From the NCBI GenBank assembly GCA_900318535.1, contig ONKU01000013.1, positions 1-64,000 on the forward strand: 64,000 nucleotides of DNA, written 5' to 3'. This DNA comes from an uncultured Prevotellaceae bacterium (GTDB lineage: Bacteria; Bacteroidota; Bacteroidia; Bacteroidales; Muribaculaceae). Below the pieces are notes generated by a model. That model had not been told where the DNA came from. It saw only the letters and a program-made list of their open reading frames with translations, and did not search any database. Every line of letters starts with the position of its first letter. Position 1 is the first letter of the stretch. A program made the position numbers and the translations under genes. Of this stretch, positions 1 through 15,467 are shown one piece after another.

Positions 1-2056
1 CATCACCTACGTGGGCATTATCCAAACCGCCCGCGCCAGTGGTCTCGAGAAGTTCCCCCTGCCCTACGCAATGACCAACTGCCACAACTCGCTGTGCGCT
101 GTTGGCGGCACCATCAACGAGGATGACCACGTGTTCGGTCTCTCGGCTGCCAAGAAGTACGGCGGTATCTACGTTCCCGCTAACCAGGCCGTTATCCACC
201 AGTTCGCCCGCGAGGCAATGGTGAAGTGCGGTAACATGATTCTGGGTAGCGACAGCCACACCCGCTATGGTTCGCTCGGTAACATGGGCGTTGGTGAAGG
301 TGGTGGCGAGCTCGTGAAGCAGCTGCTGCGCAACACTTGGGACATCAATGCTCCCGAGGTTGTCCTCGTATGGCTGGAAGGCGCTCCCCGCAAGGGTGTA
401 GGTCCCCACGATGTTGCTATCTCGCTCGTTAAGGCTACCTTCGAGAGCGGCTTTGTAAAGAACAAGGTGCTCGAGTTCGCTGGCCCTGGCGTGAAGAATC
501 TGCCCATCGACTTCCGTAACGGTATCGACATCATGACCACCGAAACCACCTGCTTGAGCTCGATCTGGGTAACCGACGACGAGGTGAAGCACCACTACGA
601 GATCCACGAGCGTCCCGAGGACTTCAAGGTTCTCCAGCCCGGTGAGGTGGCTTACTACGACAGCATGATTAAGATCGACCTGAGTACTCAGGAGTGTATG
701 ATCGCTCTGCCCTACCACCCCAGCAACGCATTCACCATCCACGAGCTGCAGGCTAATCCCACCGAGATCCTGCGCAAGGTCGAGGAAGACACCAAGAAGC
801 GTTTTGGCGACAAGGTACAGTGCGACCTCGTTGACAAGGTGATGAAGGACGGCAAGGTACAGGCCGACCAGGGTATCATCGCCGGCTGCTCGGGCGGTAC
901 CTATGACAACCTGAGCGAGGCTGCCAGCATCATGCGCGGCACAAGCATCGGTAACGACTACTTCACCATGAGCGCTTATCCCCAGTCGGTTCCCGTTTAT
1001 ATGGCAGCCGTACGTGAGCGCATCGTTGAGGAGCTGCTCGAGACCGGTACGATCATCAAGCCCGCCTTCTGCGGTCCTTGCTTCGGTGCAGGCGACGTGC
1101 CCAGCAACAATGGTCTGTCGATCCGCCACACCACCCGCAACTTCCCCAACCGCGAGGGTTCCAAGCCCGGTCAGGGTCAGATCTCGCTGGTTGCCCTGAT
1201 GGACGCCCGCTCGATTGCTGCCACCGCAGCTAACGGAGGCGTTATCACCGCTGCCACCGACATTGACTACACCAACGACCACAATCCTTACAAGTACGAT
1301 GCAAACATCTACAAGCGCCGCGTATATTACGGCTTCGACAAGGCTGAGGCTGACGTTGAGCTGCGCTACGGTCCCAACATCAAGGACTGGCCCAAGATGT
1401 ATGCTATGGAGGACAACATGCTGCTCGAGCTGGCAGCCGTTATCCACGACAGCGTAACCACCACCGACGAGTTGATCCCCAGCGGTGAGACCTCGAGCTA
1501 CCGCTCGAACCCGCTGAAGCTCTCTGAGTTCGCCCTGTCACGCCGCGTGCCTGAGTACGTTGGCCTGAGCAAGCGCATCCAGGAGCAGGATCACGAGCGC
1601 CGCGACGGCAAGTGCCCGCAGCACGTGCTCGACGCTCTCGCAAAGGTTGGTGCTAAGCCCGAGAACACCTCGTTCGGCTCATGCGTATTCGCCCACAAGC
1701 CCGGTGACGGTTCCGCTCGCGAGCAGGCCGCATCGTGCCAGAAGGTGCTCGGCGGTGACGCCAACATCTGCTACGAGTACGCTACCAAGCGCTATCGCAG
1801 CAACTGCATCAACTGGGGTATCGTTCCCTTCACCATCGCTGCCGATGTTGAGTTCAACTACAACCCCGGTGACATGGTATTCGTTCCCGGCATCCGTGAG
1901 GCCATCATCAATGGCAAGGAGGAGATTGATGCCAAGGTTATCGCTGCCGACGGCGTGCATGACCTGCACCTCTACTTCCAGAACCTGACCCAAGACGAGC
2001 GCACCATCCTCGCCGAGGGCTGCCTGATGAACTTCTACGCTTCGCAGAAGAAGTAA
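1..2056 (+). CDS. acn: Aconitate hydratase family protein (5' partial)
   Basis: Isomerises citrate to isocitrate through a [4Fe-4S] cluster in the cytoplasm. The frame is open from base 2, so the true start lies off the left edge; 684 residues remain, suggesting about 60-70 are missing. Three candidate cluster cysteines are visible: one in AGCSGGTYDN (codon at 887) and two in CGPCFGAGD (about 1070-1081). The first site differs from the GSCTNSSYED of classical aconitases, so this looks like the divergent, YbhJ-like branch. The isocitrate dehydrogenase gene 150 bp downstream supports a real aconitase role. A strong hairpin follows the stop. The aconitase/hydratase family is sure; the exact substrate is inferred from context. 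Confidence 0.9.
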   Translation, partial: ITYVGIIQTARASGLEKFPLPYAMTNCHNSLCAVGGTINEDDHVFGLSAAKKYGGIYVPANQAVIHQFAREAMVKCGNMILGSDSHTRYGSLGNMGVGEGGGELVKQLLRNTWDINAPEVVLVWLEGAPRKGVGPHDVAISLVKATFESGFVKNKVLEFAGPGVKNLPIDFRNGIDIMTTETTCLSSIWVTDDEVKHHYEIHERPEDFKVLQPGEVAYYDSMIKIDLSTQECMIALPYHPSNAFTIHELQANPTEILRKVEEDTKKRFGDKVQCDLVDKVMKDGKVQADQGIIAGCSGGTYDNLSEAASIMRGTSIGNDYFTMSAYPQSVPVYMAAVRERIVEELLETGTIIKPAFCGPCFGAGDVPSNNGLSIRHTTRNFPNREGSKPGQGQISLVALMDARSIAATAANGGVITAATDIDYTNDHNPYKYDANIYKRRVYYGFDKAEADVELRYGPNIKDWPKMYAMEDNMLLELAAVIHDSVTTTDELIPSGETSSYRSNPLKLSEFALSRRVPEYVGLSKRIQEQDHERRDGKCPQHVLDALAKVGAKPENTSFGSCVFAHKPGDGSAREQAASCQKVLGGDANICYEYATKRYRSNCINWGIVPFTIAADVEFNYNPGDMVFVPGIREAIINGKEEIDAKVIAADGVHDLHLYFQNLTQDERTILAEGCLMNFYASQKK

Positions 2057-2064
2057 TTCATTTA

Positions 2065-2096
2065 TTCCTGTCATGGGCGCAGGCCCATGACAGGAA
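2065..2096 (+). terminator. Hairpin after aconitase gene
   Basis: A 14-bp perfect stem (TTCCTGTCATGGGC with its complement) and a 4-base loop lie 8 bases after the aconitase stop. No long T-run follows, so it may act as an attenuator or mRNA 3' stabiliser rather than a full terminator. Next comes a short TTTAGAGTTTAG-type repeat (2099-2130), an AT-rich filler also seen at other gene junctions in this window. Confidence 0.55.
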
Positions 2097-2206
2097 GTTT
2101 AGAGTTTAGAGTTTAGGGTTTAGAGACTTTAGCTTGAACTCTTAAAAACAACAGAAACAACAATTATCAATATTTTTATCAACGAAACTGATTTAATTCA
2201 ATCAAG

Positions 2207-3418
2207 ATGGAAAAAATTAAAATGACCACTCCCATCGTGGAGATGGACGGTGACGAGATGACCCGCATCCTGTGGAAGATGATCAAGGACGAACTGATTC
2301 TTCCGTTTGTAGACCTCAAGAGTGAGTACTACGACCTGGGTCTTGTAAAGCGCGACGAGACTGGTGACAAGATCACCATCGAGGCTGCTGAGGCTTGCAA
2401 GAAGTATGGTGTTGGCGTGAAGTGCGCTACCATCACCCCCAACCTGAAACGTATGGACGAGTACAAGCTGCACGAGATGTGGAAGAGCCCCAACGGCACC
2501 ATCCGTTCCATCCTCGACGGTACCGTATTCCGCGCTCCCATCACCATCCCGAGCATCAAGCCCGTGGTGAAGAACTGGGAAAAGCCCATCACCATCGCTC
2601 GTCATGCCTATGGCGACGTTTACAAGAGTGTTGAGCTGCGTGCCGACGAACCCGGTGTTGCCAAGCTCGTCTTTGACGGCGTTAGCGGCAAGCACGAGGA
2701 AGTGGTGATCCACGAGTTCAAGGGCGAGGGCGTCCTCCAAGGTATGCACAACCTGGACAAGTCCATCCGTTCGTTTGCTCACAGCTGCTTCAAGTATGCT
2801 ATCGACACCAAGCAGGATCTGTGGTTCTCGACCAAGGACACCATCAGCAAGAAGTATGACGCTCAGTTCCGCATCATCTTTGAGGAGGTTTACGAGCAGA
2901 ACTACAAGGCTGAGTTCGAGAAGCTGGGTCTGGAGTACTTCTACACCCTGATCGACGATGCCGTTGCTCGCGTAATCCGCAGCAAGGGTGGTTACATCTG
3001 GGCTTGCAAGAACTACGACGGCGACGTGATGAGCGACATGGTCAGCACCGCCTTCGGTTCACTGGCTATGATGACCAGCGTACTCGTTAGCCCCGACGGC
3101 AACTACGAGTATGAGGCTGCCCACGGTACCGTAACCCGCCACTACTACAAGTACCTCGAGGGTGAGGAGACTTCGACCAACCCCATGGCTACCATCTTCG
3201 CATGGAGCGGTGCCCTGCGCAAACGCGGTGAGAAGGACGGTATCAAGGAGCTCATGAACTTTGGTGACCAGCTCGAGGGCGCTTGCTTCGACACCCTGAA
3301 TGCCGGTATCGTTACCAAGGACCTCGTGAACCTGATGGAAGGTGTTGAGGCTAAGGCTGTCAACAGCGCCGAGTTCATCAAGGCCATCCGCACCAACCTC
3401 GAGAAGCGCCTCGGCTAA
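2207..3418 (+). CDS. icd: NADP-dependent isocitrate dehydrogenase (eukaryote-type)
   Basis: Oxidatively decarboxylates isocitrate to 2-oxoglutarate with NADP+. The 403-residue protein aligns along its length with the homodimeric eukaryote-type enzymes (IDH1-like) and not with the E. coli Icd type. Signature stretches are VEMDGDEMTRILW near the N-terminus, MWKSPNGTIR, the substrate-binding segment RHAYGDVY, ACKNYDGDVMSD and EAAHGTVTRHY. It sits just downstream of the aconitase gene, forming the citrate-to-2-oxoglutarate branch that feeds glutamate synthesis. Its last 33 codons are duplicated 1.8 kb downstream at the far side of an AT-rich insert, so this gene end is a probable insertion site. 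Confidence 0.96.
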   Translation: MEKIKMTTPIVEMDGDEMTRILWKMIKDELILPFVDLKSEYYDLGLVKRDETGDKITIEAAEACKKYGVGVKCATITPNLKRMDEYKLHEMWKSPNGTIRSILDGTVFRAPITIPSIKPVVKNWEKPITIARHAYGDVYKSVELRADEPGVAKLVFDGVSGKHEEVVIHEFKGEGVLQGMHNLDKSIRSFAHSCFKYAIDTKQDLWFSTKDTISKKYDAQFRIIFEEVYEQNYKAEFEKLGLEYFYTLIDDAVARVIRSKGGYIWACKNYDGDVMSDMVSTAFGSLAMMTSVLVSPDGNYEYEAAHGTVTRHYYKYLEGEETSTNPMATIFAWSGALRKRGEKDGIKELMNFGDQLEGACFDTLNAGIVTKDLVNLMEGVEAKAVNSAEFIKAIRTNLEKRLG

Positions 3419-3432
3419 TCCCCAATCGACGT
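3320..3432 (+). repeat. Direct repeat, left copy (icd 3' end)
   Basis: These 113 bases cover the last 33 codons of icd and 14 bases beyond the stop. They recur at 5116-5228 in the same orientation with only two differences (G to A at the position matching 3341 and A to G at the position matching 3424). Similarity stops abruptly at both ends. This copy is part of the intact gene; the other is a gene fragment. Confidence 0.95.
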
Positions 3433-3448
3433 CACTTTAAAACATCTC

Positions 3449-3480
3449 AGCGAGAGAGCCTAGGCTTAGGCTCTCTCGCT
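3449..3480 (+). terminator. Terminator after icd (on insert side)
   Basis: A 12-bp perfect stem, AGCGAGAGAGCC paired with GGCTCTCTCGCT around an 8-base loop, lies 30 bases after the icd stop and is followed by GTATTTAGTTATT. It is just inside the insert boundary, so the insert appears to bring its own stop signal for icd transcription, while a second, stronger terminator follows the duplicated icd end at 5248. Confidence 0.7.
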
Positions 3481-3589
3481 GTATTTAGTTATTCTCAACT
3501 CGTCACTACACCTCTTTTTTATGCGTTAATAAATGATTATTCTAAACTCAGTTTTTATTAAAACTGAACCTATTGTAAATAAAAAGAGC

Positions 3590-3597
3590 TATCTTTG
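3590..3597 (+). promoter_or_regulatory. Bacteroidetes -7 box TATCTTTG
   Basis: TATCTTTG matches the TAnnTTTG -7 element read by the Bacteroidetes primary sigma factor. It lies 84 bases ahead of the preferred ATG of the K+ channel gene, within the AT-rich insert, so the insert has its own promoter. Confidence 0.65.
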
Positions 3598-3680
3598 CAT
3601 TTACTACATTATTATTGAAACTATAATAACTTAACTATTTAATATGCCTTTTGTCAAACCAACATATCGCTACTTTTTCC

Positions 3681-4469
3681 ATGGAAATAAGAGAATTGAT
3701 TTATAAAATAGTTGAGCCACAATATAATAGCAACGATAATAAATGGTCTCGTGTATATGACTGGGTGATGCTGGTTGCTATAATTATTGGCATCATTCCG
3801 CTCATGTTCAGGGAACACTATAAATTGTTCTTTATCTTTGATATCGTTTCTTGCGCTCTCTTTATTATTGACTACATCTTGAGGTGGATGACTGCAGACT
3901 ATCGCTTCAGAAAAAAAAGCAATGCGATTGCTTCATTTGCGATATATCCTTTCACCCCTATGGCCATAATTGATTTATTATCGATCCTCCCCACATTTAA
4001 TTATATAACAAACGCATTCAAACTAACTAGGGTTGTAAGATTACTCAAAATAATTCGAGTGGTCAAGATTATTAGATATTTTGCACCACTTCGTTTAGTT
4101 GTTGCTGTCATCAAAGCACAAAAGGCCGTTTTGGCTACTGTATTAGGATTAGCATTCTTCTATGTGTTTTTGACAGCATTGATAATGTTTAATGCCGAAC
4201 AACCCATTAATCCCGAAACAGGAGAACTTCTGTTTAATAACTTCTTCGACGCTTTTTATTGGGCAGCATGTACTCTCACAACAGTCGGCTATGGAGATAT
4301 CTATCCCATATCCACAACAGGTAGAATCATCAGTATTATTTCATCTGTAGTTGGCATAGCCATCATTGCTCTGCCCTCTGGCATTATTACTGCTGGTTAT
4401 ATGGAAGAAGCGAGAAAGCTTCGAAACGAAAATATAAGAGAATCAAATGAGGATAATGAGAGCATTTAA
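3681..4469 (+). CDS. Voltage-gated-type potassium channel (6 TM)
   Basis: Predicted inner-membrane K+ channel subunit of 262 residues with S1-S4 plus pore topology. The S4 segment carries spaced arginines and lysines (TRVVRLLKIIRVVKIIRY), and the selectivity filter TVGYGD is at residues 201-206, followed by a last helix and a short charged tail with no cytosolic regulatory domain. I start at the ATG at 3681; a TTG at 3651 in the same frame would add ten residues of poor quality. The gene is markedly AT-rich compared with icd and lies with the DUF4236 gene between two direct copies of the icd 3' end, which points to horizontal acquisition. Whether it sets membrane potential or serves some defence or stress role cannot be seen. 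Confidence 0.88.
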   Translation: MEIRELIYKIVEPQYNSNDNKWSRVYDWVMLVAIIIGIIPLMFREHYKLFFIFDIVSCALFIIDYILRWMTADYRFRKKSNAIASFAIYPFTPMAIIDLLSILPTFNYITNAFKLTRVVRLLKIIRVVKIIRYFAPLRLVVAVIKAQKAVLATVLGLAFFYVFLTALIMFNAEQPINPETGELLFNNFFDAFYWAACTLTTVGYGDIYPISTTGRIISIISSVVGIAIIALPSGIITAGYMEEARKLRNENIRESNEDNESI

Positions 4470-4505
4470 TCTTCTCTTCCTCTATTCAGATTTATTGCAT
4501 TTAAT

Positions 4506-5078
4506 ATGGCCTGGAATTATCGAAAAAGAATAAAAATATTCCCTGGAATTTACTTGAACTTTAGTAAAGGTGGGGTAAGCACATCTATTGGTCCAAAAGG
4601 GGCTAAAGTTTCGTTTGGGAAAAAAGGCACATTTCTCAACACTAGCATACCCGGCACAGGACTTTACTCACGAAAAAAGATATCAAACAATAATGATGAC
4701 AATAATGAAAATCATCCTATCAATGAGACACATCAAAATAAAGACGGATTTTTTAAAATTAAGAATACGTGGGGATGTTGTTTTAGATGGTTAGGACTTA
4801 TTTCTATTGTATTTCTGATAATAAACCTTTTCCTGTTATTAATAGGTAGTTTTGATTATTCTGAAGACAACCTAAATGCTCTTCTTTTCTATGGTTTATT
4901 TGCTGCAATATTCATTATTGTGTATTTTGGTAGATTTATGTCTTTTCTTAGGGGTAAATGTGAGAATAAATCTAATAAAATGCCCCTCACTGACATCGAT
5001 GAGAAAACAAAAAACGATTCGATTGAAAGAACAAGAGAAATGTTAACCAAAATAATTAATCAAAACGACAGTAAATAA
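4506..5078 (+). CDS. DUF4236 domain membrane protein
   Basis: 190 residues. The first 55 or so match the DUF4236 pattern: a basic start (MAWNYRKRIKIFPG), then glycine-rich KGGVSTSIGPKGAKVSFGKK and GTFLNTSIPGTGLY. A hydrophilic Asn-rich linker follows, then two hydrophobic segments at about residues 92-115 and 125-145, and a polar tail. The function of DUF4236 is unknown. It begins 36 bases after the K+ channel stop on the same strand, shares its AT-rich composition, and is the second and last gene of the insert, so the two are probably co-transcribed. Confidence 0.75.
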   Translation: MAWNYRKRIKIFPGIYLNFSKGGVSTSIGPKGAKVSFGKKGTFLNTSIPGTGLYSRKKISNNNDDNNENHPINETHQNKDGFFKIKNTWGCCFRWLGLISIVFLIINLFLLLIGSFDYSEDNLNALLFYGLFAAIFIIVYFGRFMSFLRGKCENKSNKMPLTDIDEKTKNDSIERTREMLTKIINQNDSK

Positions 5079-5115
5079 ATGACAATTAATAAGTAATGTT
5101 GATTCGTGATAAAAT

Positions 5116-5228
5116 GACCTCGTGAACCTGATGGAAAGTGTTGAGGCTAAGGCTGTCAACAGCGCCGAGTTCATCAAGGCCATCCGCACCAACCTCGAGA
5201 AGCGCCTCGGCTAATCCCCGATCGACGT
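5116..5228 (+). pseudogene. Duplicated 3' fragment of icd (right direct repeat)
   Basis: This stretch holds a 5'-truncated copy of the last 33 codons of icd, stop included, plus 14 bases of downstream sequence, 111 of 113 bases identical to 3320-3432. It has no start or promoter of its own. It is followed directly by a strong intrinsic terminator, most simply the original icd terminator. It is therefore best read as the displaced end of icd left when the two-gene insert arrived. Confidence 0.93.
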
Positions 5229-5247
5229 TTCTGACGAGAAACCCCAA

Positions 5248-5289
5248 CGAGGGCTGCGACAACTGGTGCCGCAGCCCTCGTTTTTTTTT
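5248..5289 (+). terminator. Intrinsic terminator after icd remnant
   Basis: An 11-bp stem (CGAGGGCTGCG with CGCAGCCCTCG), an 11-base loop and a run of nine T. It is 30 bases after the stop codon of the icd fragment, the spacing expected if it was the ancestral icd terminator. Confidence 0.9.
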
Positions 5290-5412
5290 AGCCTTTCCCG
5301 TATTATGGGCTGATAGCCCGCAATACAAGGACAGCACACTTTCATGGAGTTGCGGGTCGAGAGCGGTCATAAAAAAAGCAGAGTAGAAGTTGGTGTGTTG
5401 GATGGTTTTCTT

Positions 5413-5420
5413 TAAATTTG
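5413..5420 (+). promoter_or_regulatory. -7 box TAAATTTG
   Basis: TAAATTTG fits the Bacteroidetes -7 element and lies 50 bases ahead of the likely ATG (5470) of the secreted protein gene. Apart from this, the icd remnant and its terminator, 5079-5457 holds nothing recognisable. Confidence 0.6.
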
Positions 5421-5469
5421 CGGGTGAATAACCAACTTTGTTTTCAACCTTTTAATCATGTTTTTAGTT

Positions 5470-7098
5470 ATGAAGCGAACAATTACTCTTATTGCACTGG
5501 TTGCTGCCCTGCTCATCCCGAGCATGGCCAGCGCTCAACGCATGCCCGCCAAGAGTGGCATGAGGTTGTCTCAGTTCAAGGCTCCTGCCGCTGCACCCGC
5601 GCGTGCCGAGGAAGAGCCCATTATGGAGGCTCCTGAGGGCACCCTGTATGACAACATGTATGCTTCCTCGTTTGCCTATGGCCTGGGCTGGGGCGACATC
5701 TATATCCAGAATGTGGATGGCGGCATCGGCAAGGTAGTCGAGGGCAACGACGGCAACCTGTACATCTACAATCCCATCTCACAGGGCTACATCTGGTTCT
5801 CGATCCTGCCCTGGATCAAGGCTGAACCGGCAGGCGACGGCAAGTATGTCGTAAAACTGCCTCAACTCTACATCATTGACGTTGGCGACCCGTACTATGC
5901 CTACTGCATGCACTATGACGAGGATGAGGGCATGCCCGTCGTCGAGGAGGAAGGCGAAATCGAGTTCACCTGGGAAAACGGCGTGCTCACACAGCTGGGC
6001 GACAAGTTCATCGGCTTGTGCGACGCCACGGCCGACTGGTTCTACATGGCCGATCAGCACATCGTGTATGCGCCCATGACCGAAGAGCCCATCACGCTGT
6101 CGGAAACCGAATACTACATTCAGTCCTACACCATGACCTACCTGTCAGATCCCACCGACTTGACCAAGACCAAGGAGCGCATTGTGGACGTGGTCATCGA
6201 TGGCGAGGACATCTACATCGGTTACCTCAACAACAACAATCCTGATGCATTCATCAAGGGTCATCTGGCTGACGGCAAGGCTACCTTCCCCACCCGCCAG
6301 TACCTGGGTGTTGACGCTTACTACAACGGACACATCTATGTGCTCACCGGCGATGCGTTTGTCGATACCGAGACCTACGGCAGCCCCGTGTTCAACTACA
6401 ACCTGAACGACGAAATCGTCTTTGATGTCGATGAGGAGGCCCATAACCTCGTTGCCGAGTGGCCCGCAGCCATGGTCACCAACGTTGGTCCCAACACGCT
6501 GTCAATCATCAACGACTATGTTGCTCCCGGCCTCGTTGCGTTTGAAGAATTCCCTGCAGTTCCCGCAACACCCATCTTTACCGAGGACGACATCACCATC
6601 AACCAGACCTCAGGCTTCACCGTGCTGCATTTCACCATCCCCACCGTTGACGTTGACGGCTACAAGCTCAACGAGAACAAGCTGTACTACAACATTCTCC
6701 TCGACGGTGATGTATTCACCTTCGACCCCGAGCTCTACATCGGCCTGCCCACGTACATGACTGACATTCCTTACAGCTTTGAGGACAATGTCAACTTTGA
6801 CATCTACATCAGCGGTAACGGCCGCCACACGGTTTACCTCTATACCACCGACTTTGAGACCGTAGGTGTGCAGAGCATCTACACTGCCGGCGATGAGGTG
6901 AACCGCTCTGAGGTTGCCTATGTCGCCAATCCCCTCCCCTCGGGCATCAACGAGGTGGGCACCGGCGCACAGGTTGTCGAGACCCGCTACTATGACCTGA
7001 CCGGCCGTGAGCTGCCCGCAGCACCCGCTAAGGGCCTGTACCTGCAACGCAGAACCTACAGCAACGGCACCTCCGCCACCATCAAGGTCGTGAAGTAA
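5470..7098 (+). CDS. Secreted protein with C-terminal sorting-like motif
   Basis: 542 residues from the second ATG, which opens directly on a signal peptide (MKRTITLIALVAALLIPSMASAQ); the ATG at 5458 would add four residues. The body is acidic and rich in Tyr, Asp and Gly with repeated phrases such as DGEDIYIGYL and TFPTRQYLG. It ends in YYDLTGRELP...GLYLQ...IKVVK, the pattern of Bacteroidetes C-terminal secretion/anchoring tails. It is a paralogue of the 39752-41335 product (shared GVQSIYTAGDEVNRSE-like motif and tail). Function unknown; expected outside the inner membrane. An intrinsic terminator follows. Confidence 0.85.
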   Translation: MKRTITLIALVAALLIPSMASAQRMPAKSGMRLSQFKAPAAAPARAEEEPIMEAPEGTLYDNMYASSFAYGLGWGDIYIQNVDGGIGKVVEGNDGNLYIYNPISQGYIWFSILPWIKAEPAGDGKYVVKLPQLYIIDVGDPYYAYCMHYDEDEGMPVVEEEGEIEFTWENGVLTQLGDKFIGLCDATADWFYMADQHIVYAPMTEEPITLSETEYYIQSYTMTYLSDPTDLTKTKERIVDVVIDGEDIYIGYLNNNNPDAFIKGHLADGKATFPTRQYLGVDAYYNGHIYVLTGDAFVDTETYGSPVFNYNLNDEIVFDVDEEAHNLVAEWPAAMVTNVGPNTLSIINDYVAPGLVAFEEFPAVPATPIFTEDDITINQTSGFTVLHFTIPTVDVDGYKLNENKLYYNILLDGDVFTFDPELYIGLPTYMTDIPYSFEDNVNFDIYISGNGRHTVYLYTTDFETVGVQSIYTAGDEVNRSEVAYVANPLPSGINEVGTGAQVVETRYYDLTGRELPAAPAKGLYLQRRTYSNGTSATIKVVK

Positions 7099-7125
7099 CC
7101 GCATCAACACTGTTTTGACACTGAC

Positions 7126-7163
7126 AAGGGCCGCGACACGTGCTGTGTGTCGCGGCCCTTTCT
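7126..7163 (+). terminator. Intrinsic terminator
   Basis: A 14-bp stem (AAGGGCCGCGACAC paired with GTGTCGCGGCCCTT), 7-base loop, then TTCTATG. It closes the secreted-protein transcript 28 bases after its stop. Confidence 0.8.
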
Positions 7164-7261
7164 ATGTATAGTTTCCAAACCGGCTGTTCAAGTATTACGG
7201 GCTAACAGTTACTTTGAGAGGAAATATCTCCTGTGTGAATCTAAGAATTAGGAAAATTCAT

Positions 7262-7269
7262 TATCTTTG
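7262..7269 (+). promoter_or_regulatory. -7 box TATCTTTG for corA-like gene
   Basis: TATCTTTG, 27 bases ahead of the ATG at 7297, implies a very short 5' leader. Confidence 0.65.
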
Positions 7270-7296
7270 CATGATTAAACGTGGAGGAACGGGAAT

Positions 7297-8226
7297 ATGA
7301 TCAGTTATTGGAAATGCAAGGACGGATTTCGTGAAATCCATCAGTGGAAGTCGGGGTGCTGGGTTAAGGTCTCCAACCCGACTGCAGAGGAACTGGCAGT
7401 GCTCAAGGAGCGCTTTGCTGTTCCCGACTTCACCCACGATGCCGAGGACATCGAGGAGCGCCCCCGCGTGGACCATGAGAACAACTGGATGCTGGTTTTC
7501 ATTCGCATTCCAAACCGCAGCCTCGACGAGGACGGCGAGACGATGTTCACGACGGCACCGATGGCCGTTCTCATTCGCGACGACGTGTTCATCACGGTCA
7601 ACTATTTCGAGAACGAGGTCCTTGACGATTTCATCAGCTGGAGCCAGCGCCGCCACCTCAATTCCTGCAAGGGATATGACCTGCTGTTGTCGCTGATGCT
7701 GTCCACATCGGTGTGGTACCTGAAGTACCTCAAGCAGATGAACACGATGATGAGCGCCGCCGAGGAGCGGCTGGAGCAGAAGATGGACAATGACGAGCTG
7801 ATGCGCACCATGGGCTTGAGCAAATTCCTGATCTACTTCATCACGTCGCTCAAGGGCAACATGACCGTGCTGGCGCGCCTCAAGAAGCGCCTGCGCACAT
7901 TGCCCCACGACGAGGACCTGTTTGAGGATGTTGAAATCGAGACACAGCAGGCCCTGGACACCGCCAGCATCTACAACGACATTCTGGAGCGACAGCAAGA
8001 GACCTATTCATCGGTTATCGGCAACAACCTGAACCGCATCATGAAGACGCTCACCGTGGTGACCATCCTGCTGATGATTCCCACTGTGGTGGCAGGCTAT
8101 TATGGCATGAACGTGCCCAACGGTCTGGAGACACGTTGGGTGGGTTTCCCGCTGGCCGTTATCATCTCGCTGTTGCTGATGGCCATCGGCTACGTCTTCA
8201 TCCGTCACAGCAAATTTTTCAAATAA
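7297..8226 (+). CDS. corA: CorA family divalent cation transporter
   Basis: Inner-membrane Mg2+ (or Co2+/Ni2+) channel of 309 residues, the usual CorA length. A long cytosolic N-terminal domain with a helical region (about residues 130-245) precedes two C-terminal transmembrane helices. The YGMN signature, which forms the selectivity entrance, is at residues 269-272 directly after the first helix. The protein ends with a short basic tail. It has its own TAnnTTTG promoter and terminator, so it is a single-gene unit. CorA versus a Zn2+-exporting ZntB-like relative cannot be settled by eye; the GMN motif is common to both. Confidence 0.92.
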   Translation: MISYWKCKDGFREIHQWKSGCWVKVSNPTAEELAVLKERFAVPDFTHDAEDIEERPRVDHENNWMLVFIRIPNRSLDEDGETMFTTAPMAVLIRDDVFITVNYFENEVLDDFISWSQRRHLNSCKGYDLLLSLMLSTSVWYLKYLKQMNTMMSAAEERLEQKMDNDELMRTMGLSKFLIYFITSLKGNMTVLARLKKRLRTLPHDEDLFEDVEIETQQALDTASIYNDILERQQETYSSVIGNNLNRIMKTLTVVTILLMIPTVVAGYYGMNVPNGLETRWVGFPLAVIISLLLMAIGYVFIRHSKFFK

Positions 8227-8243
8227 CAGCAGCACATCACACA

Positions 8244-8279
8244 ACAAGCCCGGCAGCGCAATCACTGCCGGGCTTGTTT
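8244..8279 (+). terminator. Bidirectional-looking terminator
   Basis: ACAAGCCCGGCAG pairs with CTGCCGGGCTTGT around a 7-base loop, followed by TTTG. It separates the corA-like gene from the converging DUF3332 gene. Confidence 0.8.
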
Positions 8280-8305
8280 GTGGTAAATGATGACCGATTG
8301 GCGAT

Positions 8306-8860
8306 TTACTTCAGAGCGAAGGCTACACCGCCAATGCCCACCAGCTCCTGATAGGCGAGCACACCAGGCTGCGACAGCTCTACACGGGTGTAGCTGCCAT
8401 CACGGGTGATGACATCAACGTGGGTGTCGTCAACAAAGGTGAAGAGCTTCACTTCCTGACCGTTGTTCTCGAGTGACCAGGAGTTGTCCTCGGCGTTGAA
8501 GTTGAAGCGGGTTACCTGCTTGGTAGTCATGTTGGTGATGGTATAACCACCCTCGTTGCGGGCCACCAGATACTTGGCATCCTTGCCGTCAACGACCTTG
8601 ACCTCGGATGCGAGGGCAGGATTCTCGCCTGACCAGAACTCAATCGAGTTCAGGATGAACAGGTCGGCAACAAAGCACAACTCATAAACGGGCAATACCC
8701 ACATGGCCACAAAGACGATTTCGTTCACAAACTTGTCGCCTACATGATCGTTCCAGTTCTTTACCTTGTTGAACAGGGCAAAGCTGCCGATACATGACTG
8801 CATCATCATGGATGCTGAGAGAGCCACTACAGTGGCCAGAATCAAATGTTTCTTTCTCAT
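8306..8860 (-). CDS. DUF3332 family lipoprotein
   Basis: 184 residues from the preferred start (MRKKHLILATVV); an ATG four codons upstream is possible. The signal sequence ends at a lipobox-like SMMMQSC with Cys23, so it is probably a lipoprotein. SCIGSFALFNKV and WNDHVGDKFVNEIVF, followed by a hydrophobic pair of segments, match DUF3332, whose function is unknown. It lies 26 bases after mltF on the same strand and is probably the last gene of a cdsA-mltF-DUF3332 operon. Confidence 0.8.
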   Translation of the reverse strand: MRKKHLILATVVALSASMMMQSCIGSFALFNKVKNWNDHVGDKFVNEIVFVAMWVLPVYELCFVADLFILNSIEFWSGENPALASEVKVVDGKDAKYLVARNEGGYTITNMTTKQVTRFNFNAEDNSWSLENNGQEVKLFTFVDDTHVDVITRDGSYTRVELSQPGVLAYQELVGIGGVAFALK

Positions 8861-8886
8861 AATGATTGACATGTTGATTGGTTACG

Positions 8887-10272
8887 TTATTTCTTATAAT
8901 TCTTTTTGTAGTTCTCGTAGCAATTAAGCACCTTAACGACATAGTCCACGGGCTCAGTGCCGCGACAATAACCGTTGGAGCACACCGAGTCGTTATAATA
9001 CTCCGGATCCATCTTCCACAACATCGCCTGCTCGACATTCTCGCTCCACACGCGCGGATCGAGCTCATATTTGCGGGCAAGGGCGATAGCGTCGGTCACA
9101 TGGCCAGAACCGGCATTGTAAGCGGCCAAGACAAACTTGATGCGGTCGTCGGGGCCGGTGCGGCTGCGCATGATGCCGTCAAGCTCCTTGAGAATCTTGG
9201 ATGCCACGCGGATGCTCACCTCAGGGTTGCTCAAGTCATTCTCATCCACGCCAAAGAGCCGTGCCGTCTTGGGCATCACCTGCATGATGCCGCGGGCACC
9301 CATCCATGAAGTGGCATTGGGGTCGAAGCCCGATTCCGAGAAGGCTATCGCCGCCAACAGGCGCCAATCCCATCCCAGTTCCTGGGCATACTGCTTGAAC
9401 ACATTGTCATAGGGCGAAATGCCGCCTGGAGGCGTCACGGCCAGCGTATCGACCTTGATCGAGTCGGGTTTGGGGCCACGGTTCATCTCAAAATAGTGCT
9501 TGAGAGCCTGCTTGGAATACTCCTGCGCATTGCTGCTAGCCGCCCACTCGTTGATGCTGTCGGCCAACCACTGGTTGCGCCTGGCGACGGCCCACGACGA
9601 GCGTTGTTCAAAGCCTACACGCAACTGGATGTTGATGCTGTCATAGTAGGTGAGATTCATCTGGGCGATATCGCTGTCCACGATGGTAAACGAGATATCA
9701 CGCTTAGAAACCTGCTGGATGAGTTCGGTGGGCAAGGCCGCTTCGCCCTCCACCGTGTGGATGTCAATACCGCCACCCACCTCGTTGTCCAGGTTGCGCA
9801 GGCGGGACTCATATTTGGAGCCTTTTTCCACATACACGTCGCGCCCGATGAGTTCCGTCACATCATGTATCAGCCCTGCGCCGCTGTGCTGCACGAGCAC
9901 CTGATAGGTCTCGTTGACGGCACCGCAGTGCAACACGCGCGACTTATACTCGGCCGTGACGGGAATTTCGCAGGCCAGCACATCCACCGTGCGTTTGTCA
10001 AGCATTTTGAGCAGGTCTTTCATGCTGCGGGCGACCTTGAATCGCAAGGCTATGCCACGCGAGCGCGCAAAGTCACAGATGCGGTCATAGTCATATCCCA
10101 TGGTGTCGCCCTTAAGGATGAAAAATCCCGTCGGGCTGTAGAGGGTGCCCACATTGAGCGTGTCGGGCAAGCGGTGCTGCGGTGCCGGCTGGTTTTTCTT
10201 GCCGCCACACGACATCACGATCGACAGCAGCAATGCCAAAAACAATGAGGGCAGGAGACCACGCATAATCAC
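8887..10272 (-). CDS. mltF: Membrane-bound lytic transglycosylase F
   Basis: Cleaves peptidoglycan glycan strands, forming 1,6-anhydromuramic ends, on the periplasmic side of the outer membrane. The 461-residue protein has a lipobox (VMSCGG, Cys22), then a solute-binding-type (SBP_bac_3) regulatory domain at about 35-265, then a lysozyme-like SLT domain with catalytic Glu in AFSESGFDP and the family segments GARGIMQVMPKTA and FVLAAYNAGSGHV. This order is diagnostic of MltF. Its start overlaps the cdsA stop by four bases (ATGA), so the two are translationally coupled. Confidence 0.93.
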   Translation of the reverse strand: MIMRGLLPSLFLALLLSIVMSCGGKKNQPAPQHRLPDTLNVGTLYSPTGFFILKGDTMGYDYDRICDFARSRGIALRFKVARSMKDLLKMLDKRTVDVLACEIPVTAEYKSRVLHCGAVNETYQVLVQHSGAGLIHDVTELIGRDVYVEKGSKYESRLRNLDNEVGGGIDIHTVEGEAALPTELIQQVSKRDISFTIVDSDIAQMNLTYYDSINIQLRVGFEQRSSWAVARRNQWLADSINEWAASSNAQEYSKQALKHYFEMNRGPKPDSIKVDTLAVTPPGGISPYDNVFKQYAQELGWDWRLLAAIAFSESGFDPNATSWMGARGIMQVMPKTARLFGVDENDLSNPEVSIRVASKILKELDGIMRSRTGPDDRIKFVLAAYNAGSGHVTDAIALARKYELDPRVWSENVEQAMLWKMDPEYYNDSVCSNGYCRGTEPVDYVVKVLNCYENYKKNYKK

Positions 10273-11117
10273 AGGTAGTTGGGAACAACGAGCAGGAGAT
10301 AGATAAACACCGCAGGCGCCACAAGCAAGAGGCTGTCGATGCGGTCCAGGATGCCGCCATGCCCCGGCAGCAGGTTGCCCGAGTCCTTGACGCCCACCGT
10401 GCGCTTAATGAGCGATTCCACGAGGTCGCCAAAAGTGGCGAACACAGCAACCACCACGCTCATACCAACCCAAACCGTCAGGTCAGGTACCTGGAAGAAC
10501 TCGTTGAACCAGTGGTGGGTTGCATAGGCCCCAGCAACACAAAACGCCACACCACCGATGACGCCTTCCCACGATTTTTTAGGGGAAATGCGCTCGAACA
10601 GGCGGTGACGGCCCAGCAGCATGCCCACACAATAGGCACCCGTGTCGTAGAGCCAGATGAAGATGAACATGCCCAGCAGCAAGCGGGGGGCAGTGATGCT
10701 CATGATGCCGTTGAGCATCGCTATGGGCAGCGCCACATAGCCCAACGAGAAGAATGAGCGTTCAAGACTGTGGACCGCATTCTGGCGCGGGCGGTAGAGC
10801 TGCACGATGGTGCGCAATAACAGATAGGCAGCGATGGGCAGCAGCCACAAGGAACGCGACTGCATCGTCGTGCTCTCATAATGCAGGTAGAGGGCCACAA
10901 ACACCCCGATGCCACCCAGCATGTCGATGATATTGACCAGCCACGACTGCGTGGCGTCGTCCTTGGCCATGGAAATCATCTCACCGATGCCCAGCACAAT
11001 CAGCAACGGGAACACCAGCAGGTACATGACCGGCGAGTTGTCGAGCAGCAGGATTGCCGCCACAATCAATGCGATATAGATGACGCCCGAGAGGACGCGT
11101 TTAATCAAGTTCACCAT
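10269..11117 (-). CDS. cdsA: Phosphatidate cytidylyltransferase
   Basis: Makes CDP-diacylglycerol from phosphatidate and CTP in the inner membrane, the branch point of phospholipid synthesis. 282 residues with about eight hydrophobic segments and the CDS signature near the C-terminus: KRTVGVKDSGNLLPGHGG followed by ILDRIDSLL. The segment SPKKSWEGVIGG is also typical. It has its own -7 box and leads an operon with mltF and the DUF3332 gene. In many Bacteroidetes rsfS and ftsH precede cdsA; here they do not. Confidence 0.96.
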   Translation of the reverse strand: MVNLIKRVLSGVIYIALIVAAILLLDNSPVMYLLVFPLLIVLGIGEMISMAKDDATQSWLVNIIDMLGGIGVFVALYLHYESTTMQSRSLWLLPIAAYLLLRTIVQLYRPRQNAVHSLERSFFSLGYVALPIAMLNGIMSITAPRLLLGMFIFIWLYDTGAYCVGMLLGRHRLFERISPKKSWEGVIGGVAFCVAGAYATHHWFNEFFQVPDLTVWVGMSVVVAVFATFGDLVESLIKRTVGVKDSGNLLPGHGGILDRIDSLLLVAPAVFIYLLLVVPNYL

Positions 11118-11139
11118 AGCGTATTCGTCTTATTTGGTG

Positions 11140-11147
11140 CAAATGTA
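11140..11147 (-). promoter_or_regulatory. -7 box TACATTTG for cdsA operon
   Basis: On the minus strand TACATTTG lies 23 bases ahead of the cdsA ATG. Confidence 0.65.
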
Positions 11148-11201
11148 CAATTTTATCACGACATAAACAACATCCGTTCAGCCAAGAGTCTAAAAAAATG
11201 A

Positions 11202-11234
11202 AACCTTCCGTCACCATCATGGGCGAGGAAGGTT
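11202..11234 (-). terminator. Terminator after small ORF
   Basis: AACCTTCC and GGAAGGTT pair around a 17-base loop. On the minus strand the stem is followed by TTTCATTTTTTTAG. It lies just downstream of the 11270-11428 ORF, which supports that small ORF being transcribed as its own unit. Confidence 0.65.
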
Positions 11235-11269
11235 CCTTTTAACCTTGGGGAGAGGGCGATTATTCTGGT

Positions 11270-11428
11270 TTAATTCAAAATCATCGACTCTAATCCTCTC
11301 GGCAACTCGACGTTGTACTGATAAGCCCTTGCAAACTGCTTGAGGAACTCCACGGTTGCCTTTCTCGGGCCTTTAACTGATGTCATAACGTCTTTTTCTT
11401 GTTTCGTCGAAGTAGTCATTTTGTGCAT
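11270..11428 (-). CDS. Small hypothetical protein
   Basis: 52 residues from the ATG at 11428 (alternatives at 11473 and 11419). The core reads MTSVKGPRKATVEFLKQFARAYQ, a basic amphipathic helix region, followed by a short tail ending GLESMILN. There is no signal peptide or membrane segment. I recognise no named family, though short proteins with a 'KGPRKxTxxFLKQFAR' core seem to occur in other Bacteroidales. A dedicated terminator just downstream favours a real gene. Start and function are uncertain. Confidence 0.55.
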   Translation of the reverse strand: MHKMTTSTKQEKDVMTSVKGPRKATVEFLKQFARAYQYNVELPRGLESMILN

Positions 11429-11539
11429 AGGCAAACCTGTTTTAAAATTCTTACACTTTGATAACGCACACATGGCCCCTAATATTATATCGTTCTCGTA
11501 ATTTAATATTTTTTTTCATTTAGGTATCAGAAAAAGAAA

Positions 11540-11566
11540 GCCTGCGACTATTCACTAGCGGCAGGC
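11540..11566 (-). terminator. Terminator of uridine phosphorylase gene
   Basis: GCCTGC and GCAGGC pair around a 15-base loop; on the minus strand the stem is followed by TTTCTTTTTCTG. It lies 31 bases after the udp stop. Confidence 0.7.
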
Positions 11567-11596
11567 CCTCACATGAAACAAAAAATTCACTCTTCG

Positions 11597-12478
11597 TTAT
11601 TCCGTCAGTCGGTCAAGGACGGTGCGTACCAGGTCCTCGACTGCTGTCTTGTAGTTGGGATTGACATCGGTGGCGACACGATTGGCGATAATGGAGCAAA
11701 CGGTCATCGCACGGTGCCCCAGCATGAGTGCCATGCCCTGCAGGGCACTGCTCTCCATCTCATAGTTGGTGATGTGTCCGCCATTGTACTCAAATTTCTC
11801 AATGCGGCTGTTGAGCTCTGGCTCGGCCAGTTCCAGGCGCACGCGGCGTCCTTGCGGTCCGTAAAAGCCCACAGCGCTGATGGTGTAGCCGCGCACCATA
11901 TCGTCACGACCGATTTTCTCGACCAGCCACGGGTCAGCATCCACGACATAGGGCTTGGCGAGTAGCGGATTCCACTTCACAAATTCGCAGAATTTCTTCT
12001 CGAATTCCAGGTCAGCCACCTTGTTGCGGTCAGCATAATAGTTGATGACGCCATCAAAGCCGATGGCCTTGGATGCGATTACTGAAGTGCCTACGGGTAC
12101 ATAGGGCTGCAGACCGCCCGAGGTGCCAATGCGCACAATGTTGAGCGTGCGGTGCTCGGCACGAGGCGTGCGGGTCTCGAAATCGATGTTAGCCAAGCCG
12201 TCGAGCTCAGTCATCACGATGTCGATGTTATCGGGACCGATACCATGAGAAAGCGCCATGATGGGCTTGCCGTGATAGGTGCCACCAATAGCGTGGAACT
12301 CACGGCTGGATGTTTCCCAATCCCGTGTGTCAAAATAGGAGGCAATCATGGTCACACGGCCTGGGTCGCCACACACGATGATGTTGTCGGTCAACTGTTC
12401 GGGCTTCACATGGATGTGGAACGCTGAGCCATCATCATTGATGATGAATTCTGAGTCGGGGATTCTGTTAGTATTCAT
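11597..12478 (-). CDS. udp: Nucleoside phosphorylase, probable uridine phosphorylase
   Basis: Cytosolic enzyme of pyrimidine (or purine) nucleoside salvage, splitting nucleoside and phosphate into base and ribose 1-phosphate. 293 residues with the PNP/UDP fold: phosphate-binding VCGDPGRV near residue 36, HGIGPDNIDI, IGTSGGLQP, and the base/ribose-binding NYEMESSALQG. The EMES element and the uridine-phosphorylase-like FYGPQGRR insertion favour uridine as substrate, but substrate choice is inferred. It is a single-gene unit with its own -7 box and terminator. Confidence 0.85.
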   Translation of the reverse strand: MNTNRIPDSEFIINDDGSAFHIHVKPEQLTDNIIVCGDPGRVTMIASYFDTRDWETSSREFHAIGGTYHGKPIMALSHGIGPDNIDIVMTELDGLANIDFETRTPRAEHRTLNIVRIGTSGGLQPYVPVGTSVIASKAIGFDGVINYYADRNKVADLEFEKKFCEFVKWNPLLAKPYVVDADPWLVEKIGRDDMVRGYTISAVGFYGPQGRRVRLELAEPELNSRIEKFEYNGGHITNYEMESSALQGMALMLGHRAMTVCSIIANRVATDVNPNYKTAVEDLVRTVLDRLTE

Positions 12479-12524
12479 ATCGTTGTATTATTAGCGTTTC
12501 GGTTCTTAGTTGCGAATTAAATAG

Positions 12525-12532
12525 CAAAGGTA
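12525..12532 (-). promoter_or_regulatory. -7 box TACCTTTG for udp
   Basis: TACCTTTG on the minus strand, 47 bases ahead of the udp start. Confidence 0.6.
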
Positions 12533-12584
12533 CTAAGTTCTATTGAATTATCAAAATCCCCAGCCATAAAAAATAAAAATAAAA

Positions 12585-13706
12585 CTATGCTATCACATAG
12601 CGGCAACCTGGTAGGGTGGCTATTACATTTTTGCAGTCAAGTTCAACCAGGATGCTCATGAGTTTATAGACCGGAGCATGAAGAGCATCGGCAAGAGCGT
12701 TGAGATGGATTTCGCCGCGGTCGCGAATGACGTCAACCACAGCCTGCTCCTCCTTGGTCAGTTCCGGGAAGAGATCAAGCTGCTGGGGGACCAATCGGGC
12801 ACCCTCCCAGCGCATGGCCGCCATCAGGTCGTCGGCACCGGTAATGAGTGCTGCCTTGTTGGTGGCAATGAGCTTGTTGCAGCCAGCCGAGAACTCGTCG
12901 CCGCAGCGGCCGGGAACGGCCATCACGTCACGGTTATAGCTCATGGCCAGCGAAGCGGTGACAAGAGCACCGCCCGACCCCGCTGACTCGACAATCACCG
13001 TGCAGTCGCTCAAAGCTGCCACGATGCGGTTGCGAGCCAGGAAATTACTCTTCTGCACCTCGTCCTGAGTGGTATAGTCGGTCAGCAGCATGCCTCCATG
13101 CTTGGCAATGGCGATGGCGTCGTTGCGGTGCATGGCAGGATAGATATGGTTCAACCCTCGCGGCAACACGGCTACAGTCGCTACACCATGCTTGAGGGCA
13201 GCGCGATGGGCCGCAATGTCGATACCATAGGCCAAGCCGCTCACCACGGCCAGGTCGGGCAGGCGCTGGGCCAGTTCCCCGATGAGCGTTTCACAGAACC
13301 TGATGCCATATTGCGTGGCATGCCTGGTCCCCACGACGCTGATGACATGGGCACTCTCCAGATCACACTTGCCCAGCGTGTAAATCATCGCCGGAGCATC
13401 AGCGGCCTCGACAAGGCGATGCGGGTAATTCTCATCGGTAAAATAGGTGGCAGCAATGCCGTGTTCTCGCACAAAGGCCTCCTCTTTCACCGCACGTTGC
13501 AAGCGCTCCTGGCGGTACTTGTCGCTGTAGATCTTACTGCGACCACGCGTGAGGGCGCGCAGTTCTTTCTCACTCATCGTGAAAAACCGCTGCTCGTCGC
13601 CCACGACGTCCATCAGCTTGCGCGCCAGATCTACACCCATGCCCTGCAGGCTGGCAAAGGCAATGCGGTAGGTCAGTGGAGTATATGTTGCGTCATTGCC
13701 GGTCAT
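12585..13706 (-). CDS. dprA: DNA-processing protein DprA
   Basis: Loads RecA on incoming single-stranded DNA during transformation and recombination. 373 residues: an N-terminal HhH/SAM-like region (about 1-75), the Rossmann-like DprA core (VVGTRHATQYG, SGLAYGIDIAAHRAAL, LPRGLNHIYP, ARNRIVAALSDCTVIVES, VTASLAMSYNRDVMAVPG), and a C-terminal winged-helix region from about 305. Its start overlaps the stop of the upstream thioesterase gene by four bases, so the pair forms an operon. Confidence 0.95.
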   Translation of the reverse strand: MTGNDATYTPLTYRIAFASLQGMGVDLARKLMDVVGDEQRFFTMSEKELRALTRGRSKIYSDKYRQERLQRAVKEEAFVREHGIAATYFTDENYPHRLVEAADAPAMIYTLGKCDLESAHVISVVGTRHATQYGIRFCETLIGELAQRLPDLAVVSGLAYGIDIAAHRAALKHGVATVAVLPRGLNHIYPAMHRNDAIAIAKHGGMLLTDYTTQDEVQKSNFLARNRIVAALSDCTVIVESAGSGGALVTASLAMSYNRDVMAVPGRCGDEFSAGCNKLIATNKAALITGADDLMAAMRWEGARLVPQQLDLFPELTKEEQAVVDVIRDRGEIHLNALADALHAPVYKLMSILVELDCKNVIATLPGCRYVIA

Positions 13707-14122
13707 TGTTGCTCAAGGTATTTGGAAATCTGCGCGGCCAGGTCATCGCCACGGTTGATGCGTCCATCCTTTTCCATGCACACGATGGTGACCACGGCAC
13801 TCACGACCGCCGCTCCGTCCCCTTTCCTGAAAATGTCCTGGTAGAAAATGAAGCGCGGTCCCTTGCGTTCTATCCACAGCCGGCTCAGCATCACGTCGCC
13901 GCTGCGCAATGGCGTGTGGTAATCGATTTCCATGCGCCGCACCACGGGAATCAGCCCCTCACGGGTCAAACTGCCGAAGGGGATGCCCTCCTGCTTGACA
14001 AAGGCATGACGCGTGTGCTCGAGATAGTGCAGATAGATGGCGTTGTTGACGATGCCCTCGCTGTCGAGTTCATAGTCCCGCACAGCGATCTCCAGCGCGA
14101 AGATGTATTTGTCCTGTATCAT
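13703..14122 (-). CDS. Acyl-CoA thioesterase, YbgC/4HBT family
   Basis: 139-residue hot-dog-fold thioesterase. The N-terminal segment VRDYELDSEGIVNNAIYLHYLEH matches the 4-hydroxybenzoyl-CoA thioesterase active-site region, with Asp replaced in part by the DSEGIVNN form common in Bacteroidetes. No signal peptide is seen; the probable substrates are short or aromatic acyl-CoAs or acyl-ACP. It is the first gene of a two-gene unit with dprA (ATGA overlap) and has a -7 box close to its start. Confidence 0.85.
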   Translation of the reverse strand: MIQDKYIFALEIAVRDYELDSEGIVNNAIYLHYLEHTRHAFVKQEGIPFGSLTREGLIPVVRRMEIDYHTPLRSGDVMLSRLWIERKGPRFIFYQDIFRKGDGAAVVSAVVTIVCMEKDGRINRGDDLAAQISKYLEQQ

Positions 14123-14129
14123 TGTGTCG

Positions 14130-14137
14130 CAAAGATA
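14130..14137 (-). promoter_or_regulatory. -7 box TATCTTTG for thioesterase-dprA
   Basis: TATCTTTG on the minus strand only 8 bases ahead of the ATG, so the transcript would be nearly leaderless. Confidence 0.65.
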
Positions 14138-14317
14138 GCTAAAAAAGAAGTTACACCTGAGGGTAAATCACATTTTTTTGCCATAGCGACAACTAGCTGG
14201 GCACAATTGTGCCGGCGGCGCAGTATGGGTCGAAGACCCAATCGACCTTTTCAAGGTCACATCCGCATCCGCAAATTATCATAAAAAACAAGTTTTTTCC
14301 ATCCCGGGCAAAATGAA

Positions 14318-14356
14318 GCCTGCCCGCGGGCTGATCATCTCAGCGGGCGGGCAGGC
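14318..14356 (-). terminator. Terminator of rpmB-rpmG-DUF4295
   Basis: GCCTGCCCGC and GCGGGCAGGC form a 10-bp GC stem enclosing a further partial stem (GGGCTGA/TCAG). On the minus strand it is followed by TTCATTTTG. It lies 24 bases after the DUF4295 stop. Confidence 0.7.
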
Positions 14357-14379
14357 AGATATTGTTGAACGGCCTCAAA

Positions 14380-14529
14380 TTACTTCAGCCAGTCCTGTAC
14401 CTTGTCGTTGGGGACCATGCGCTCCTCAAACACGTAAGCGCCAGTCTTCTCGGAGCGGACCATCTTGATCACCTTGCTCCATGAGCGTCCTTCACCAGTC
14501 TGAAGGGTTGCAACTACTTTCTTTGCCAT
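14380..14529 (-). CDS. DUF4295 small protein
   Basis: 49 residues, MAKKVVATLQTGEGRSW ... ending in NDKVQDWLK. Length, basic N-terminus, aromatic core (AYVFEERMVP) and position right after rpmB and rpmG match DUF4295, a family found in Bacteroidetes next to these ribosomal genes. A ribosome-associated role is inferred from this fixed context and not shown. It begins 30 bases after the rpmG stop. In many relatives ftsY follows; here a terminator comes instead. Confidence 0.9.
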   Translation of the reverse strand: MAKKVVATLQTGEGRSWSKVIKMVRSEKTGAYVFEERMVPNDKVQDWLK

Positions 14530-14559
14530 ACTGTTATATAGTCGTTTAAAGGGTTGTTA

Positions 14560-14748: not shown

Positions 14749-14766
14749 AATACAGTTGCTCCTTTC

Positions 14767-15369: not shown

Positions 15370-15375
15370 CGGCTG

Positions 15376-15383
15376 CAAAGATA
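15376..15383 (-). promoter_or_regulatory. -7 box TATCTTTG for rpmB leader
   Basis: TATCTTTG on the minus strand, the only TAnnTTTG match in the 500 bases ahead of rpmB that faces it. Confidence 0.6.
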
Positions 15384-15467
15384 GATACATTTTTTGAACT
15401 ACACAACACATTTCCAACACTTTTCTTCATTTTTTTGTCATGGCGCCATCGATTCAATGAAGAAAAA

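Follow-up and report, generated by a model that had tools for sequence, protein, structure and literature searches.

How do accessory genes come to lie directly behind a host gene that stays full length, with no mobile element visible beside them? The question is raised by the isocitrate dehydrogenase gene icd of an uncultured Prevotellaceae bacterium (GCA_900318535.1, a draft assembly of 2.92 Mb in 43 contigs), which we analysed in a 64-kb stretch of contig ONKU01000013.1, hereafter the window. There, the 3' end of icd recurs as a direct repeat behind two small genes, one for a Kv-like potassium channel and one for a DUF4236 protein (coordinates in Table 1). The site has precedents in another phylum: in Escherichia coli, the element e14 and phage 21 insert at icd. 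Our comparisons show that an insertion occurred at the end of icd and displaced its old flank, and these data do not identify the enzyme. They also show a flank of one type (B, after its terminator), with the channel-DUF4236 cargo, joined to a resident flank of another type (A).

The repeat spans 116 nt, namely the last 102 nt of icd and 14 nt behind the stop codon, and its two copies are 97% identical (113/116), with mismatches at positions 3319, 3341 and 3424. A preliminary description of this DNA had noted slightly shorter copies (3320-3432 and 5116-5228, 2 mismatches in 113), and the duplication is real. The 116-mer is present at these two places only in the assembly. We found just one other direct repeat of 40 nt or more in the window, an adjacent duplication at 38667-39043 (188 nt, 85% identical). 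Only two genes lie between the icd-end copies, with no integration, transfer or phage genes among them, and the old icd end is displaced by 1,796 bp. The insert has a GC content of 0.334 against 0.526 for the window, of which it is the most AT-rich ~1.7 kb (0/624 sliding windows were lower). These values and the Pfam matches given below agree with its earlier portrayal as an AT-rich pair of K+ channel and DUF4236 genes. Behind each copy stands a terminator-like hairpin with a sequence of its own, terminator A on the right and terminator B on the left. The earlier description had omitted terminator B, which is the only one picked up by a terminator scan allowing loops of 3-8. Since the cargo is flanked by two terminators, it should need a promoter of its own. 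Such a promoter had been proposed and is not established: a scan of bases 1-20000 for sigma-70-type promoters gave 17 sites against 16.6 in shuffles, which is no excess. One candidate would be the TAnnTTTG match upstream of the channel gene, a motif that we take to be the Bacteroides -7 promoter motif.

Which of the two copies is native can be read from the relatives. A search for the icd end in 101 genomes of the genus, the bacterium's own included, gave matches in 76, and we compared 74 icd loci of relatives whose sequence covered from 108 bp to about 11.5 kb 3' of icd; several contigs end within a few hundred bases of the icd end (e.g. L053, L057, L059). In near relatives, terminator A lies at +29 to +36 from the icd stop (15 loci, strict pattern), often with a palindrome next to it. 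In the bacterium's own genome, terminator A (at up to 3 mismatches) and the palindrome (at up to 2) each occur at one place, behind the right copy. Because both sit there, once genome-wide, we read the right copy and its flank as the old icd end, displaced, and we rejected the idea that either is a dispersed repeat. The usual icd flank of the relatives is thus found where the original icd terminator had been supposed to lie.

The relatives also provide the empty sites that the preliminary description had proposed to look for. In five loci (L055, L060, L071, L076 and L077), icd is followed by its terminator and then by the 546-aa gene c0, which begins +168 to +283 bp after icd. Elsewhere, the content of the interval changes. 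In 12 of the 25 loci with an A flank, a RAYT-like gene lies just behind icd and terminator A, in plus orientation in 7 and minus in 5; it has a weak match to the NCBIfam family REP_Tyr_transpos, below its cut-off, and in the bacterium's own genome its relatives are on contigs C27 and C34, away from icd. Other intervals contain a sensor kinase whose neighbours resemble PhoB and NptA by our reading, a HipA_2 kinase together with a small partner protein lacking Pfam matches, DUF4143 ATPases, a Fic protein or, in L042, a DDE transposase, and at some loci the flank genes c0 and c1 are in swapped order. The locus therefore combines conserved flanks, varied accessory genes and empty sites among relatives, as expected of a gene-turnover hotspot. 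The channel-DUF4236 pair itself was present at icd in 0/74 relatives' loci, as far as their sequence reached, and the outcome named beforehand as contrary to an insertion, the same pair in all relatives and zero empty sites, did not occur.

The flank behind the left copy has its own distribution. We typed the icd flanks with a text rule of our own, which assigned 10 loci to B (the window included) and 25 to A, and called cargo foreign if the first gene was not c0, c1, c12 or RAYT-like. The first gene was foreign in 9/10 B loci and in 4/25 A loci (p 9e-5; 2e-4 without the window). Among near relatives, the A flank thus leads mostly to flank genes or to the RAYT-like gene, and the B flank mostly to foreign cargo; L076 is a B locus without cargo. 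In an icd tree built without the repeat, 9 of the 32 rows carry B, and their placement requires 8 changes, the same as shuffled labels (341/500 as low). Terminator B is scattered over this tree, which is weakly resolved (4/29 inner branches starred, bootstrap not settled, L102 on an absurd branch and L076 absent). The exact consensus of B was found in 4/101 genomes, every time just behind icd, and B occurs once in the window. Because the exact consensus lies just behind icd only, terminator B looks more like an allele of the icd flank than like the end of a dispersed element. The latter reading is not supported, though the search was confined to the exact consensus, to which the variants in the window and at five further loci do not conform.

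Scars of similar anatomy, with other cargo between the icd ends, occur in other genomes. In G095 (locus L032), a 124-bp copy of the icd end (94% identity) lies behind HipA_2-type cargo. In G046 (L033), a copy aligned over 62 columns (95%) lies behind a Fic gene on a 333-kb contig. In G057 (L034), a decayed copy lies behind cargo of kinase-phosphate type (Smith-Waterman score 26, against at most 18 in 100 shuffles). The same Smith-Waterman test in 26 other loci found no second icd end that beats its own shuffles (L072 ties). A family-wide protein search gave the icd end in 89/397 genomes, twice in G000, G046 and G095; a weak second match in G138 is on a different contig (E 0.087), and the genus search gave a weak second match in G024. 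We set aside as coding coincidences the matches of G063 and G092, which fall within one same open frame (GDP-fucose synthase-like by our reading), and that of G087, which is not at icd and lies inside another open frame.

The scars share some traits and differ in others. In G095, the icd base at which the repeat begins is almost the one seen in the window, give or take a few bases owing to mismatches; in G046, it lies ~45 nt further into icd. Right copies match their own left copy at 100/102 positions in the window and 99/102 in G095, and the two right copies match each other at 88/102, which suggests separate events, or else copies kept similar by conversion. Terminator B follows the left copy and terminator A the right one in the window, in G095 and, in decayed form, in G057. 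The polarity differs in G046: there, the terminator usual in its clade stands behind the left copy, and the right copy has an odd one. At 2100-3620 behind its icd stop, G095 also has a DUF4143 gene between a full terminator A and the right half of another; this half terminator is a second insertion scar, of another kind.

Duplicated ends are more frequent at icd than at other genes. In 183 loci (1.76 Mb, window excluded), a repeat at a gene end was seen in five (G095, G046, L187, L225 and L230). G095 counts once, although its right copy also adjoins the end of the reading frame of its cargo. Clear end duplications affected 2/69 icd ends and 0/428 other gene ends in the same loci (Fisher test set up after the cases were known, window excluded, p 0.019; p 0.0026 with the decayed copy of G057 added). 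The repeat of L187 (115 nt, 90%, 3293-3406 and 11734-11846) surrounds 8.4 kb with a channel gene and is almost wholly intergenic.

The search for a recombinase and its attachment site, which the preliminary description had also proposed, tied no integrase or attP to the icd site. No tyrosine recombinase was found in 80 loci, up to ~11.6 kb behind icd, with a search that did not extend to serine recombinases. Its profile came from seven sequences, two of them in the wrong frame, and still recovers seven recombinase loci and the integrase of a Dulem virus, used as control. Phage_integrase has 7 matches in the bacterium's own genome, all of them on contigs other than that of the window, and this family is found in 99/101 genomes of the genus, among the strongest matches, which are those listed. 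No credible attP-like icd end was found in the own genome, phages, plasmids or IMG/VR. Short matches of the icd-end query in 2 phage and 3 plasmid records were taken as chance; in IMG/VR, the DNA pattern of the icd end had 0 matches, and the 60-aa icd end gave 18 pattern stretches, none confirmed. A long icd query revealed icd-like genes in 5 unannotated records of the phage collection and in 65 plasmid records, the latter at 63.9-71.2% identity among the 20/65 matches listed, with one other record in the 90-95% band. The literature listings that we consulted contained no paper on an icd insertion site in Bacteroidales. The earlier reading of a mobile insert at icd is thus partly supported: the comparisons bear out an insertion, and its integrase, its attP and a self-contained 1.8-kb element are all unsupported.

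What inserted the cargo? The account that we rank first, and judge evenly poised between right and wrong, is a gene-turnover hotspot behind icd that is entered by homology at the icd end. The incoming DNA would have been the icd locus of a relative, with its icd end, terminator B and cargo. On the left, it would have entered by homologous crossover within or close to the icd end, and on the right it would have been rejoined to the resident icd at a point 102 nt short of where the stop codon ends. The gene would have been kept intact, now under terminator B, and the scar behind the cargo would consist of the resident icd end, terminator A and the palindrome. Both components have been described: insertion with homology at one end (PMC3240628), and gene-turnover hotspots without integrases, with recombination at flanking core genes (PMC5635113). 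Our preference for homologous import rests on the allele-like behaviour of the B flanks at the icd locus and on the fact that no machinery of an element was seen. Also in its favour are the empty sites and varied cargo of the relatives, the link of terminator B with foreign cargo, the swapped order of c0 and c1 and the second scar of G095. Several observations weigh against it. The repeat starts almost identically in the window and in G095 despite their differing cargo and icd sequences, which random right-hand joints would not predict, and icd shows a duplicated end more often than other genes do. No scar was found in 7/10 B loci (tested for those with flank genes; L069 was outside the test), and G046 has the clade's usual terminator after the left copy, not the right. 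None of the 74 icd loci offers a donor for the channel-DUF4236 cargo, and a distant donor is unlikely because both copies have the same 14 nt after the icd stop, save one mismatch, at a place where relatives vary.

We rank an integrase acting in trans second, on account of the common start of the repeat and the bias towards icd ends. The insert might be an islet of cis-mobilizable type, integrated site-specifically, with an attP that carries terminator B after the final ~100 nt of icd; we regard this as possible but on the whole unlikely. We give similarly limited credence to its details, an integrase supplied in trans or since lost, with the left copy as attL and the right copy as attR. Such integration would also account for the B-left, A-right order in the window, G095 and decayed G057, and it has parallels in work on Proteobacteria, where icd attP sites have long identity blocks and a replacement gene end (PMC10111431) and many E. 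coli islands reside at icd (PMC7545054). It has to contend with the missing tyrosine recombinase, in the 80 loci and on the contig of the window, with the missing attP-like icd end in all the collections searched, with the different repeat start of G046 and with L076, whose B flank has no cargo. A bolder version, which we hold to be doubtful, is that tiny integrase-less cassettes (~1-3.5 kb) share the last ~100 nt of icd as attachment site and bring a spare icd end and terminator B, with HipA-like, phosphate-uptake-like or channel-DUF4236 cargo. They would be moved by a recombinase encoded elsewhere and interchange across the species of the genus.

It seems improbable that the scar arose locally, by repair or replication that copied the icd end, so that foreign genes were trapped as if within a very long target-site duplication. 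The copies do match each other (100/102) better than they match the icd end of G095, and the 14 nt behind the stop are common to both save one base, but the terminator B of the left copy also stands behind icd in nine relatives, mostly with other cargo, and the same anatomy is seen again in G095 and G046. Very improbable, finally, is an assembly artefact in which differing icd flanks, from several strains or species, were merged. This is a draft assembly, and the contigs of several relatives stop within a few hundred bases of the icd end; yet the contig of the window spans both copies, these differ at three bases, and the same anatomy recurs with other cargo in G095 and in the 333-kb contig of G046.

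We regard the cargo as a probable accessory membrane module, in which the channel is paired with a DUF4236 protein of a kind that recurs beside it elsewhere. The channel matches Ion_trans (PF00520, E 1.5e-26) and Ion_trans_2 (PF07885, E 2e-13), and its neighbour matches PF14020 (E 5.9e-21). The match to PF00520 above its cut-off and an in-frame TTVGYGD filter mark the channel as a K+ channel of voltage-gated type. Its start is more likely ATG 3681 than TTG 3651, because the relatives begin MKFRERIF.. or MKIRERIF.. and the window reads MEIRELIY.. from 3681. Relatives of the channel occur in 46/397 genomes of the family at E 1e-20, and in a scan of named genomes the top loci, among the best 80 of 93, were mostly from Prevotella-like or Bacteroidales assemblies. 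The nearest channels within the genus (66-69% identity; G048, G073, G077 and G079) are not at the icd locus of G048, G073 and G079, and G077 has no icd match. In G073 and G048, at one and the same site, DUF4236 precedes the channel with a gap of ~20 nt. A 745-aa DUF4236 frame lies directly before the channel, with overlapping frames, in L165 (Prevotella sp. khp7, 3798-6774), and one of the same length lies one frame ahead of it in L189 (317-3736). DUF4236 was on the stretch in 4/109 channel loci scanned; in G248, from a set other than these 109, it begins a 1015-aa frame after the channel. The pair is thus occasional but recurrent, in both gene orders, and the Kv-like channel, as a recurrent neighbour, offers a testable partner for DUF4236.

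The cargo may be phage-derived. Both proteins match phage protein families, with the channel in 5 phage records and DUF4236 in 15; in IMG/VR, channel loci number 2 and DUF4236 loci 0. The channel of Dulem virus 33 (PP511792, L246 5156-8989) is 46.5% identical to that of the window over 89% of it and lies in an interval bounded by an Xre gene and an integrase gene, which also holds four hypothetical genes. This virus differs from the window in having no DUF4236 among the 28 annotated features shown, and the window's insert has no phage genes. The cargo is not a known defence system: PADLOC gave 0 families for the two proteins at E 0.1.

Table 1. Features at and around icd, with positions in the window; the last row gives loci of relatives.
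Feature	Position	Strand	Basis
icd (host gene): isocitrate dehydrogenase, 403 aa, Iso_dh family	2207..3418	+	PF00180, E 1.1e-55
Left repeat copy: true icd end and 14 nt	3317..3432	+	Repeat comparison
Terminator B, icd terminator in the present arrangement	3448..3481	+	Stem of 15 pairs, also present behind icd in 9 relatives, most of them with cargo
TAnnTTTG match, possible cargo promoter	3590..3597	+	Motif match
Kv-like potassium channel gene	3681..4469 (frame open from TTG 3651)	+	PF00520, PF07885; start by comparison
DUF4236 protein, 190 aa, hydrophobic stretches after the domain	4506..5078	+	PF14020; alignment
Right repeat copy: displaced icd end	5113..5228	+	Repeat comparison
Terminator A, usual icd terminator of near relatives	5246..5282	+	Inverted repeat; single genomic place; same position in relatives
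Palindrome, after terminator A in many relatives	5303..5323	.	Single place in own genome
Right flank gene c0, 546 aa	5458..7098	+	No Pfam or NCBIfam match
Right flank gene c1, 309 aa, CorA-like by our reading only	7297..8226	+	Locus comparison
RAYT-like gene just behind icd	L029, L037, L053, L054, L057, L059, L061, L062, L064, L066, L068, L070		

Overall, we see the icd site as a gene-turnover hotspot, a kind already known, whose scar is unusually easy to read. It provides a clear case of accessory genes entering a set position in the chromosome with no mobile element in sight and with the host gene at full length, and its empty sites and several independent-looking scars make the locus readable. 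Since the displaced icd end and the two types of terminator mark the events, the site could serve to decide between homologous recombination and a hidden integrase acting in trans.

Three known systems bear comparison. The prophages and islands at icd of E. coli (PMC7545054, PMC10111431) resemble our case in inserting at the icd end, replacing the end of the gene and leaving a displaced fragment, but they are much larger, carry integrases and belong to another phylum. Cis-mobilizable elements (CIMEs; PMC5704250) likewise consist of an insert between two copies of a gene end, without integration or transfer genes. The window has 116-nt repeats at both ends of the insert, with no recombinase or attP found that would mark them as att sites, so that their att role is putative; and, unlike for CIMEs, no related integrative element at the same site was found in the loci, the own genome, phages, plasmids or IMG/VR. 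The likeness to integrase-less hotspots (PMC5635113) lies in the fixed flanking genes, the changing accessory genes and the empty sites; no integrase was seen here either, as far as the search for tyrosine recombinases in the 80 loci reached. Unlike the hotspots described in that paper, the icd site leaves behind a displaced core-gene end and two types of terminator.

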